This document shows positions 39,065 through 42,246 of a DNA stretch of 43,227 nucleotides, piece after piece. The position numbers were made by a program, and so were the translations under genes. The DNA is from Helicobacteraceae bacterium. GTDB lineage: Bacteria > Campylobacterota > Campylobacteria > Campylobacterales > Sulfurimonadaceae. Every line of letters starts with the position of its first letter. The stretch's first letter is position 1. A model generated the notes under the pieces. That model saw only the letters and a list, made by a program, of their open reading frames with translations. It searched no databases and had not been told where the DNA came from. The stretch lies in NCBI GenBank assembly GCA_015488775.1, contig WFNF01000028.1, positions 1-43,227 of the forward strand. The letters are read 5' to 3'.

Positions 39065-39084
39065 TATTATAGACTTATAATATT
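39063..39084. terminator. AT-only hairpin over dnaX and epimerase stops
   Basis: AATATTATA (39063-39071) and TATAATATT (39076-39084) form a 9-bp stem with loop GACT, followed by TTT on the plus strand. The stop codons of dnaX (39062-39064) and of the convergent epimerase (39069-39067) both lie in the first arm. Confidence 0.6.
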
Positions 39085-40047
39085 TTTATCAATTTTTATA
39101 ATTTGTAGTTTGTAATTTTTTGAATATAACAATGGTGAGTCTAAATCAATATACTCTATAACATCTGCATAATTGGCACATAACTTTATAGCTTCAGATA
39201 TACTAACTTCACCCTCAATCATAGATCCAAACATACACTTAACATTTTGACTTCTACAAAACTCAAGTATCTCTATAGCCTTACTAACACCACCACATTT
39301 CATAAGCTTTATATTTATAAGCATATGTGGATTATCTTTGATCAAAGATTTTACCTCATCAAGATTAAAAGCACTCTCATCTGCCAAAATTGGTATCTTA
39401 GATACTTTAGATATATATAACAGATCTTTATAAAACTCTTTTTTGACTGGTTGTTCTATGAGTTTTATATTTTTATAATCTAGATTTTCAATAATTTTCA
39501 AAGATTGCTCTTTACTCCAAGCCTGATTTGCATCTACTAAAATTGTACAATCTGGCAAATTTTCAGCTATAAGACTTATACGTTCACCATCTTTACCATC
39601 ATCTTTACCAACTTTAATTTTTAAAATATCATAAGCTTTTTCGTAGTATTCATGAGCATCTTCTAACATCTGATATGGTTCATTTAAAGAGATAGTAACA
39701 GCTGTTTTTATTTTTGTAGATATATATTTGCTCTGAATTAAAGCCATATCTATAGCGCTAGTTGCAGATGTGGAGTTTTTTAAAGTATTGTGTAAGATAT
39801 CTAACTGTTTAGAAAGTGTTTTATATCTCATAACTTTTTTCATTAAAATATTTATATCTTTATATATAGAGATTTTATCTTCAAGAGTTATAGCTTTTGT
39901 TGGAGTTGTTTCACCAAAATAAGTTTTATTACCACTATAGATACTTAATCTTATGATGTATGCGTACCTAACAGTTCTCAAAGCAGTTATAAAAGGCTTC
40001 TCTAATGCTATCTTATAAGAACTAAGTTTATAAGCCGTAATTTTCAA
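39067..40047 (-). CDS. dipeptide epimerase (L-Ala-D/L-Glu type), enolase superfamily
   Basis: A 326-residue member of the muconate-lactonising subgroup. It has the Lys pair LKIKVGK (near 143), metal ligands in DANQAW (near 172), IEQP (near 197) and LADES (near 220), and the opposite catalytic Lys in IKLMKCGG (near 245). These match L-Ala-D/L-Glu epimerase (YcjG/YkfB), which lets cells use the dipeptide released from peptidoglycan. Specificity is inferred from context. The start is TTG with AAAGG seven bases upstream, overlapping the permease stop by four bases (TTGA). Confidence 0.88.
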   Translation of the reverse strand: MKITAYKLSSYKIALEKPFITALRTVRYAYIIRLSIYSGNKTYFGETTPTKAITLEDKISIYKDINILMKKVMRYKTLSKQLDILHNTLKNSTSATSAIDMALIQSKYISTKIKTAVTISLNEPYQMLEDAHEYYEKAYDILKIKVGKDDGKDGERISLIAENLPDCTILVDANQAWSKEQSLKIIENLDYKNIKLIEQPVKKEFYKDLLYISKVSKIPILADESAFNLDEVKSLIKDNPHMLINIKLMKCGGVSKAIEILEFCRSQNVKCMFGSMIEGEVSISEAIKLCANYADVIEYIDLDSPLLYSKNYKLQIIKIDKNIISL

Positions 40048-41171
40048 AACAACACCTTTAAAATATAAGCTAAAAACAATGCAACAAAAGTTCCAACCAA
40101 ATAACCCATAAGGGCTAATACAACTCCAAAAGGGATAAGTGCTTTATTGTATGTTGAAGCCAATATTGGTGCAGATGCTATGCCGCCTATGTTTGCTAGT
40201 GAACTAACACCTATGCTAAACATATCTAGTTTAAATATCTTAGCTAGAGTAAACATTATAAAAGCATGAATAAGTAAAACTACAAAACCAGCAAACACAT
40301 AAACATAAAGATTTGAAAAACTCTCTATATGCGCTTTAGACGCAATAAGTGCTATAAGTATATACAACATACTAGTAGCTAAATCATTTGAGCCATTTAT
40401 AGTTTTTAATCTTGTAAAAGAGCCAATTATCCCTAATGTTGTAGCTATTAATATCATAGATGTTGATGATGAGTAGATAATAAATATTTTAGATACACTA
40501 ACACTAAAAAAAGCTACAACAAGAGATATAGCCAAAAACAGATAGTACTTTTTAGCACCTATAGTACAAGAACATCCTATATTTTCTAAAACTTTTGTTT
40601 GTTCACTTGCACCAAGAAATCTATTTATTTTACTAGAATATTTACTTAGAAAAAGTAAAAAAGTAAACCATAATGAGTAGTTAATAGTATCAATAACAAG
40701 TGCTATACCTAAGTCCTCTTCACTAACTTTTAAAGCTGAAGCTATAGCAATCATATTTGCACTTCCACCTAACCAAGATGCAGCTAATGTTGAAAATATA
40801 CCAATTTGTGAACTAGAGTATGAAAAAATCGTAAACATAATTATAAATGCTAAAACTATACTTATTACTGAAAAAAAGTAAGATAATAAAATCTTTTTTG
40901 ACAAAGAGAAAAAAGATTTAAAGTCTATTTGTAACATAAAAAGAAAAAGCATTGCACTTAATAAGTTGTTTTTTAAGTTTGTATAATTATCTTTTATCTG
41001 ATCAGTAAAACTAATCAAATCATTAGAGCCAATAATCATAAATATTATATATATAAGAACAATTGCGGGCAAATATTTAAAAACTTTAAGTTTTAATTTA
41101 AACTCTAAAAAGCCTATAAATACACTTATGCTACATATAAGCAAAAGGTACTCAAAACTTGTATCTATCAT
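40044..41171 (-). CDS. DUF819 family membrane permease
   Basis: A 375-residue inner-membrane protein with about ten hydrophobic helices. The motif AASWLGGSANMIAIASAL (near 130) and a second half with IGVSSLANIGGIASAPILA (near 325) show an internal repeat typical of DUF819 (YjcL-like) proteins, resembling two-fold transporters with broken helices. Substrate is not established for the family. Its four-base overlaps with a peptidoglycan amidase upstream and a dipeptide epimerase downstream suggest it imports a peptidoglycan peptide; that is inference. Confidence 0.82.
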   Translation of the reverse strand: MIDTSFEYLLLICSISVFIGFLEFKLKLKVFKYLPAIVLIYIIFMIIGSNDLISFTDQIKDNYTNLKNNLLSAMLFLFMLQIDFKSFFSLSKKILLSYFFSVISIVLAFIIMFTIFSYSSSQIGIFSTLAASWLGGSANMIAIASALKVSEEDLGIALVIDTINYSLWFTFLLFLSKYSSKINRFLGASEQTKVLENIGCSCTIGAKKYYLFLAISLVVAFFSVSVSKIFIIYSSSTSMILIATTLGIIGSFTRLKTINGSNDLATSMLYILIALIASKAHIESFSNLYVYVFAGFVVLLIHAFIMFTLAKIFKLDMFSIGVSSLANIGGIASAPILASTYNKALIPFGVVLALMGYLVGTFVALFLAYILKVLF

Positions 41172-41815
41172 TTACAATTAGCCCTTTTAAGATCTGGATT
41201 TTGCTCTTTTAATTTATTCATAAACCATCTTGATGGATCAGTTTTTTTAGTTCTATAATCATGGTCTAACTCTAAAAACAGCTCAGTACCCTCAAAACAA
41301 GTGTATTCATAATGTCCTGCAAGATACTCAATAGTTTTATATCTTGACTTGAGATGATTGATCAAAAAGATATTTGCCTTTAATTGTTCTGCTGTAAGAT
41401 TTGCTTTATCACCTTGTCCACCAACATTTTCTATACCGATAGCATAATAGTTTAATCCAATTACATGTCTAGCCATATATGTTTCAGGCATCAACTGATA
41501 TATAGTCCCATCAGGCTTAACTAAAAAATGAGCTGATACATTTAATGAGGAAGCAGAAGATATATCTTTTCTCATACCACCAAGTGTTTGAGGATAAAAT
41601 CTTTTAAATGATTCATCAAAACTATCTATAGCAGTATGATGTATTATTATTATTTTTGGAACTATTTTTATATCTTTAGCATCAAAACCATAGTGCTCTT
41701 TTATATATTCTTTTGTTAGCTTAACTCTTTCTTCACCAAAGTTAATAGGTTTGAAAATAATATTATTTGCCATAAGTGTGTTAAAAAGTAATAGTAGTAG
41801 TATATTAGCCTTCAA
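41168..41815 (-). CDS. exported N-acetylmuramoyl-L-alanine amidase
   Basis: Cleaves the bond between muramic acid and the stem peptide. The 215-residue protein has a signal peptide (MKANILLLLLFNTLMA) and an Amidase_2/PGRP domain. Zinc ligands appear as His in IIIHHTA (near 58), His in AGHYEYTC (near 165) and Asp in KTDPSRW (near 190). SAHFLVKPDGTIYQL and YAIGIENVGG are conserved segments. The start is TTG, with AGGAT seven bases upstream. It heads a three-gene unit with the DUF819 permease and the epimerase, fitting murein peptide release, uptake and conversion. Confidence 0.9.
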   Translation of the reverse strand: MKANILLLLLFNTLMANNIIFKPINFGEERVKLTKEYIKEHYGFDAKDIKIVPKIIIIHHTAIDSFDESFKRFYPQTLGGMRKDISSASSLNVSAHFLVKPDGTIYQLMPETYMARHVIGLNYYAIGIENVGGQGDKANLTAEQLKANIFLINHLKSRYKTIEYLAGHYEYTCFEGTELFLELDHDYRTKKTDPSRWFMNKLKEQNPDLKRANCK

Positions 41816-41850: not shown

Positions 41851-42246
41851 ATGACTATGCAAATAAATAACATAGAAAACAATTTTTTTACAAACATTAG
41901 TATATCAAATGATGCTTATAAACTTGTAAATGCAATATATAATACTTATAATATAGAAGATGAACCATATTTAGAGATAAAAGCTAAAAATATAATAAAC
42001 CTATTTCCCAATAAATCAGTGAATGAATCTATCTTTTGTATAAAAAAACTTTTTTTAGAGATTAATGAACCAGTACTAATTAAAAATTTTGATTTTAAGG
42101 GTAAATATATATATTGGAGAGCTTTATCTTTTTGTAACTGTCATAATTACATAGAAAAAGAGAGTGACACATTAAAATTAGATATAGATGAAATGTATAT
42201 TGAATTACTTAAAAATGATAAAACTCAAAAAATTTTAAATATATAA
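41851..42246 (+). CDS. hypothetical protein, 131 residues
   Basis: Not recognised. It is a soluble Asn/Ile/Lys-rich protein with no signal peptide. Residues 20-75 look helical (AYKLVNAIYNTYN, IKAKNIINLF); the C-terminal half has YIYWRALSFCNCHNYIE with two cysteines, a possible metal or disulfide site. ATG codons at 41851 and 41857 are both possible, and neither has a clear ribosome site. It is divergent from the amidase operon with a 35-base gap and precedes the exonuclease gene by 35 bases. Confidence 0.6.
   Translation: MTMQINNIENNFFTNISISNDAYKLVNAIYNTYNIEDEPYLEIKAKNIINLFPNKSVNESIFCIKKLFLEINEPVLIKNFDFKGKYIYWRALSFCNCHNYIEKESDTLKLDIDEMYIELLKNDKTQKILNI

Follow-up and report, generated by a model that had tools for sequence, protein, structure and literature searches.

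We examined a 43,227-nucleotide stretch of DNA from a Helicobacteraceae bacterium of the Campylobacterota (WFNF01000028.1, contig C28 of a 2.70 Mb assembly of 170 contigs that is 95.4% complete), referred to below as the window, and within it a three-gene unit on the minus strand in which a permease of the DUF819 family stands between a murein amidase and a dipeptide epimerase. Loci (L) and genomes (G) of the comparison are cited by our own numbers.

The amidase-DUF819-epimerase unit

The first gene of the unit encodes an exported-looking N-acetylmuramoyl-L-alanine amidase (Amidase_2; 41168-41815, minus strand; 215 residues, TTG start; PF01510, 70.9 bits against a cut-off of 26). It is followed by the DUF819 permease, the proposed L-Ala-D-Glu importer (40044-41171, minus strand; 375 residues), whose PF05684 match spans the whole domain (363 residues, profile positions 3-378 of 379; 242 bits against a gathering cut-off of 27), and by an L-Ala-D/L-Glu-type dipeptide epimerase of the enolase superfamily (39067-40047, minus strand; 326 residues, TTG start; MR_MLE_C, PF13378, 110 bits). 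Both junctions are four-base overlaps, ATGA where the amidase stops and the permease starts (41168-41171, minus strand) and TTGA where the permease stops and the epimerase starts (40044-40047, minus strand). A first-pass annotation of the window had described this overlapping unit, and the coordinates, the letters of both overlaps and the Pfam matches, all above their cut-offs, bear it out. The N-terminus of the amidase is a lysine followed by a hydrophobic stretch, with similar starts in the relatives in L099 and L107, and, read by eye, gives the enzyme the look of an exported protein.

The unit is bounded on the epimerase side by a convergent dnaX (above the PRK08451 cut-off) and on the amidase side by a divergent open reading frame (ORF) of 131 residues (41851-42246) that has no Pfam family. 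Beyond this ORF comes an RNase_T/ExoX-like gene, and relatives such as L031, L099 and L107 have an ExoX-like gene in the vicinity of DUF819 as well.

Predicted fold of the DUF819 permease

A profile search by sequence returned no solved relative of DUF819 (best E 2.3, chains named KWOCA). An AlphaFold2 model built from 43 sequences reached a predicted local distance difference test (pLDDT) value of 89.9 and a predicted template modelling (pTM) score of 0.86, and its top Foldseek match was CitS (E 1.4e-4, template modelling score up to 0.69). A second structure aligner placed CitS (Z 25.9, 354 residues, root-mean-square deviation 4.0) and AspT (Z 24.4, 343 residues, root-mean-square deviation 4.0) ahead of the oxaloacetate decarboxylase beta subunit (Z 17.4) and of Na+/H+ antiporters near Z 13. 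The model thus predicts for DUF819 the overall fold of the CPA/AT-type reentrant carriers (CitS, AspT, GltS), a class built of inverted repeats with two reentrant hairpins, in agreement with published placements of the family in the CPA/AT clan or with the glutamate symporter clan (PMC8396727, PMC8562792); the presence of the hairpins in DUF819 is taken from PMC8396727. The fold predicted to be shared with CitS, a sodium/citrate symporter, and AspT, an aspartate:alanine exchanger, extends along the whole DUF819 chain, although identity is only about 14% and the cargo of these two carriers is citrate and aspartate/alanine, respectively. L-Ala-D-Glu has two free carboxylates and would therefore be chemically similar to what such carriers transport.

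In a quick tree of the family (sequences shorter than 250 residues and L093 left out), the nearest named relatives of the window's DUF819 are Campylobacterota, two of them Sulfurimonas; basal support is weak and the window branch long, and only the starred clades were used. Together with the dnaX match, these relatives point to Campylobacterota as the phylum of the window.

Identity of the epimerase

The best solved relative of the window's epimerase is 1jpm, the L-Ala-D/L-Glu epimerase of Bacillus subtilis (E 1.4e-40, residues 1-308). Nine residues (K143, K145, D172, E198, D223, K247, D301, D303 and R24) are invariant among 16 aligned epimerases, and the first six are kept in all epimerases neighbouring DUF819 that cover the respective column (58 neighbours, three of them cut by contig ends). 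We take K143, K145 and K247 to be the acid/base lysines (a KxK motif and a lysine on the opposite face) and D172, E198 and D223 to be the metal ligands. The window's D301-L-D303 aligns with D-F-D of 1jpm, a DxD motif near the C-terminus that presumably holds the amino group of the dipeptide. The window's epimerase has R24, whose counterpart in B. subtilis we assume to bind the side chain of Glu, and so do 55 of the 58 neighbouring epimerases; those of L114, L119 and L123 have Gly at this position.

A different activity has to be weighed at this point, namely that of a DgcA-like N-acetyl-D-glutamate racemase, in which case DUF819 would carry acidic N-acyl amino acids or glutamate and no murein dipeptide. 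The window's epimerase falls below every NCBIfam equivalog cut-off, and its best score is with DgcA (154 bits, cut-off 400), slightly ahead of the L-Ala-D/L-Glu epimerase model NF041118 (141 bits, cut-off 500), and PRK15129 gives 93 bits (cut-off 343); the grouping of DUF819 with the glutamate symporter clan (PMC8396727, PMC8562792) points the same way. Against it stand the closest solved structure, which is an L-Ala-D/L-Glu epimerase, the alignment of the D301/D303 pair with the DxD of that enzyme, the company of amidases, NlpC/P60 peptidases and dipeptidases, and the relative in L112, for which the L-Ala-D/L-Glu epimerase model gives the top score (267 bits). We regard the DgcA-like alternative as very improbable, and we label the enzyme "L-Ala-D/L-Glu-type", without equivalog status, because its scores lie below the NCBIfam equivalog cut-offs.

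Co-occurrence of DUF819 and the epimerase in Campylobacterota

PF05684 was found in 21 of 249 genomes of the phylum, full-length in 19 and as fragments only in two genomes of a single genus (G116 and G163). An epimerase profile (A2; 16 rows, nine of them from the window's phylum, run on 249 genomes sampled as before) matched strongly (332-522 bits) in every one of the 19 genomes that have an intact DUF819 and in none of the other 230; three weak matches (61-82 bits) were all in genomes without DUF819. The two remnant-bearing genomes (L020-L023, L042:7995-8534 and L043:7995-8534) gave no epimerase match, which is a case of correlated loss. The Fisher p-value of this co-occurrence, 7e-29, overstates independence because the 19 genomes belong to eight genera and are related. 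The two genes are at most 5 kb apart in 15 of the 19 genomes, 5.9 and 7.1 kb apart in two, and on separate contigs in the remaining two (G234, and G126, whose DUF819 gene sits at the end of a contig); linkage within 8 kb was thus observed in 17/19, against a chance expectation of about 0.7% if both genes are single-copy in a genome of about 2.2 Mb.

The patchy occurrence of DUF819 (21/249 genomes) would also suit a mobile nutrient island, or a chance neighbourhood, with no function shared between the two genes. However, presence and absence match perfectly, including in the two genomes in which the pair is unlinked, the gene orders differ across nine phyla (see below), and both remnant-bearing genomes lack the epimerase, all of which makes such an explanation extremely improbable.

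An Amidase_2 gene abuts DUF819 in L030, L036-L039, L041, L099, L101, L107, L110 and L111; the amidase does not belong to the core of the unit but is a local partner in part of the phylum. A 480-residue ORF without a Pfam family (L041:6420-7862) lies between DUF819 and the epimerase in L041.

DUF819 loci in other phyla and operon variants

The wider sample consisted of 80 contig loci ranked by similarity to the DUF819 of Fusobacterium; together with the loci of the phylum and five loci from a plasmid collection, and after removal of L093 (the same DUF819 as L029) and of the remnants L042 and L043, it comprised 103 loci from 14 phyla. Counts are based on six-frame matches of hidden Markov models because the ORF caller was unreliable in GC-rich loci, and Pfam names were assigned to selected members of the neighbour clusters. 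At 58/103 loci, from nine phyla, an epimerase is found no more than 5 kb from DUF819, 52 of these matches reaching at least 300 bits: Campylobacterota (26/35), Bacillota (15/33), Pseudomonadota (9/17), Actinomycetota (2/2), Omnitrophota (2/2), and Spirochaetota, Fusobacteriota, Walliibacteriota and Thermodesulfobacteriota (1/1 each). Within the same distance, an NlpC/P60 peptidase, an Amidase_2 or a beta-lactamase-fold hydrolase occurs at 30/103 loci and an M20 dipeptidase at 16/103. The genome-wide presence of an epimerase was checked for 45 of the 80 named loci, of which eight have and 37 lack a neighbouring epimerase; nine of those 37 genomes hold a strong epimerase (>400 bits) elsewhere. 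Distances among DUF819 proteins and among their epimerases are correlated (rho 0.51, 57 loci, none of 999 permutations as high), a value on which we do not lean because shared species history alone could produce it.

The gene orders are varied. DUF819 is followed by an SH3-NlpC/P60 peptidase and the epimerase in Kordiimonas (L080), in Wallbacteria (L082) and at seven Xanthomonadales loci (L092, L096, L097, L098, L104, L106, L128), and NlpC/P60 genes are also found near DUF819 in L024, L027, L029, L073, L085, L087, L109 and L119. Shouchella (L075) has the order DUF3870, DUF819, epimerase and YkfC-type NlpC/P60, and Fusobacterium (L044) the order epimerase, DUF819, beta-lactamase-fold hydrolase and DUF3870, while several Clostridia (L050 and relatives) combine DUF819 with a transglutaminase-like protein, a PepV dipeptidase and an epimerase. 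The PepV proteins beside DUF819 exceed the NF005591 cut-off (477 and 526 bits). PepD-type dipeptidases accompany DUF819 at eight loci of Clostridia and Synergistota (L063, L064, L066, L067, L068, L070, L074, L083), and the four of these that were scanned by family all exceed the TIGR01893 cut-off (507-542 bits). Because of these variants, each step from the release of stem peptides to the splitting of L-Ala-L-Glu is encoded beside DUF819 in one organism or another. In a further gene region, around prpC-acnD of Neisseria meningitidis, an M15 metallopeptidase followed by DUF819 has been reported in 75 of 128 genomes (PMC12671195), which we would count as an independent, second peptidase link in favour of the proposed importer.

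The NlpC/P60 proteins of the DUF819 operons look exported when their N-termini are read by eye, and this bears on the form in which the peptide would enter the cell. DUF819 might import the intact stem peptide (a tri- or tetrapeptide) and leave its cleavage, ahead of the epimerase step, to the cytoplasm. This would resemble B. subtilis, where free murein peptides are taken in by a permease named as unidentified (PMC2954226); an amidase by itself sets the whole stem peptide free, and in the window only an amidase stands beside DUF819. Yet exported NlpC/P60 peptidases would cut the peptide ahead of its import, PepV and PepD dipeptidases are neighbours of DUF819, and the CitS/AspT fold carries small anions, and we therefore consider import of the intact peptide improbable. 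The first-pass annotation had left the cargo as the stem peptide or a breakdown product of it; the L-Ala-D-Glu dipeptide is now the better supported of these and the tripeptide the less so, because exported-looking NlpC/P60 peptidases accompany DUF819.

Several further neighbours were noted. The transglutaminase-like protein lies downstream of DUF819 in several Clostridia (L050-L055), and DUF3870, a small protein whose function is not known, recurs at DUF819 loci of Bacillota, Fusobacterium and Brachybacterium (L044, L051, L052, L054, L055, L061, L069, L075, L078, L079, L086, L089, L094, L095). An 851-residue ORF in L030 that looked like a DUF819-epimerase fusion was rejected as an artefact of the ORF caller, the two genes being in different frames. 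A sulfate permease (L026), a patatin with an ICMT-like protein (L025), YceI (L035), an NhaA-type antiporter (L034), HepT (L038), ExoX/RNase_T and dnaX were set aside as non-recurrent or housekeeping neighbours.

Murein peptide uptake and recycling genes

The first-pass annotation had noted that a peptidase cutting the tripeptide is missing from the window and had proposed a recycling route without AmpG. The peptidase is indeed outside the window, but the same genome encodes a candidate on contig C140 (L133:2994-4445), a 483-residue protein with SH3, N_NLPC_P60 and NLPC_P60 domains and a lipoprotein-like start, which looks exported by eye. AmpG (major facilitator superfamily, MFS; TIGR00901) was above cut-off in none of the 249 genomes and was not reported at all in the 19 with intact DUF819; DUF819 itself, having a different fold, does not qualify as an AmpG protein. 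Among the 21 DUF819-bearing genomes, the window's included, no LdcA match exceeded its cut-off and PTR2 was absent, and no Mpl match exceeded its cut-off in these 21 either. Binding proteins of the OppA/MppA type (SBP_bac_5) were absent from G000 and G139 and present in the other 19 of the 21. The check for ampG, mppA and ldcA that the annotation had suggested thus finds the window's genome without AmpG, without SBP_bac_5 and without an LdcA above cut-off, absences that are not proof because the assembly is incomplete. "Scavenging" describes the route at least as well as "recycling" because neither Mpl nor LdcA has a match above its cut-off.

DUF819 lineages with other partners

Several observations weigh against a strict tie between DUF819 and murein dipeptides. 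In the order of Dyella (121 genomes, tallied by hand from the result tables), DUF819 is present in 77 genomes and a strong epimerase in 36, with both in 33; 44 of the 77 DUF819 genomes thus have no strong epimerase, three of the 36 epimerase genomes have no DUF819 match, and only 11 of the 33 pairs lie within 8 kb. Co-occurrence in this order is significant (Fisher p 2e-5) but far from perfect. Many of these genomes carry a second, Xanthomonadaceae-type DUF819 clade that shows no epimerase link and is found in the order OPT oligopeptide transporter, S9 peptidase and DUF819 at seven loci (L134, L136, L138, L140, L142, L143, L046), six of which also have CstA; this setting is one of peptide metabolism, not of murein. 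No such partner was seen for the DUF819 proteins of Colwellia, Vibrio and Bacteroidota. There is no epimerase link at the loci of Bacteroidota (0/3), Zixiibacteriota (0/3), Synergistota (0/2), Fidelibacterota (0/1) and Planctomycetota (0/1), and no strong epimerase in the genomes of the eight PepD-linked loci. In addition, the Fusobacterium DUF819 by which the 80 loci were ranked is itself epimerase-linked, N_NLPC_P60 is not specific, because it occurs in 19/19 genomes with intact DUF819 but also in 208/249 overall, and an OppA-type binding protein exists in 17 of the 19.

These observations bear on the possibility that DUF819 is a general carrier of dipeptides (or of N-acyl amino acids) for which the murein dipeptide is one substrate only. 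The OPT-S9-DUF819-CstA clusters and the PepD-linked loci without a strong epimerase fit it, and so do the three Gly24 epimerases (L114, L119, L123), which pair with a separate DUF819 branch and may reflect carrier and enzyme changing specificity together. On the other hand, an intact DUF819 never occurs without the epimerase in the window's phylum, and murein enzymes are the partners in the epimerase-linked clade; we consider a general carrier unlikely, though clearly less so than the other alternatives. Neighbours from unrelated pathways, which the first-pass annotation had named as evidence against its proposal, are not the rule around the epimerase-linked clade, while the second clade gives a mixed picture.

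Discussion

Gene order, gene families, co-occurrence, correlated loss, the predicted fold and the conserved epimerase residues are the basis on which we infer substrate, direction of transport, coupling ion and location of the hydrolases, and they indicate that DUF819 of the epimerase-linked clade is most likely an importer of L-Ala-D-Glu. The unit in the window is probably an operon for the utilisation of murein dipeptides, with DUF819 taking up the anionic L-Ala-D-Glu after extracytoplasmic cleavage. Outside the inner membrane, the amidase would free stem peptides from N-acetylmuramic acid, and the exported SH3-NlpC/P60 peptidase, encoded here on another contig, would cut the gamma-D-Glu-diaminopimelate bond and so yield L-Ala-D-Glu with its two carboxylates free. 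DUF819, as a putative elevator-type secondary carrier of the CitS/AspT fold, would import the dipeptide, with Na+ or H+ as the probable coupling ion. In the cytoplasm the epimerase would then convert the dipeptide to L-Ala-L-Glu, which a dipeptidase (of the PepV/PepD type in other species) would split. The suggestion of the first-pass annotation that DUF819 takes up stem peptides of murein, or a product of their breakdown, thus gains support, at the level of sequence comparison, from the co-occurrence test inside the phylum and in other phyla.

Importers that bring cell-wall fragments across the inner membrane, as proposed here for DUF819, include AmpG, which belongs to the MFS and transports anhydromuropeptides, and the ATP-binding cassette (ABC) systems MppA-Opp and YejBEF-YepA (PMC9790009 among the sources); DUF819, however, belongs to an unrelated fold class and its proposed cargo is the dipeptide only. 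The closest parallels to the enzymes are found in Bacillus, where the YkfA-D/dppB-E route and ykfBC of B. cereus likewise co-encode an NlpC/P60 gamma-D-Glu endopeptidase with an L-Ala-D/L-Glu epimerase, and extracellular release and import of L-Ala-gamma-D-Glu have been proposed for B. cereus (PMC2954226). Transport is there associated with neighbouring ABC dipeptide genes or left unidentified, whereas the loci described here offer a single-gene candidate secondary carrier. In Escherichia coli, MpaA, YcjG and PepD act in this order on one peptide, PepD splitting L-Ala-L-Glu, and the same series of endopeptidase, epimerase and PepD is proposed here, except that the E. coli enzymes act after import by AmpG, whereas the first cut here seems to take place outside (PMC2954226). 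DUF819 has been presumed to be a sugar carrier (PMC4521371). The literature searched, in its available parts and with subscription papers and preprints largely outside the search, gave no peptide substrate for DUF819 and no link of DUF819 to murein, and none was found under COG5505.

A concrete function is thereby proposed for a widespread family that is still named "unknown function", together with a candidate for the murein-peptide carrier left open in the literature (PMC2954226). Going further, and with somewhat less than even confidence, we suggest that DUF819 proteins could be elevator-type carriers, each encoded by one gene, that transport short acidic peptides. They would be the first known peptide importers of the CitS/AspT fold; their specificity may have co-evolved with that of the neighbouring epimerase (Arg24 versus Gly24 clades), and they would give many bacteria a route to cell-wall dipeptides that is free of binding proteins and of AmpG. 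If this is true, a peptide carrier would join a class of folds known from carriers of citrate or glutamate/aspartate and from Na+/H+ exchangers.

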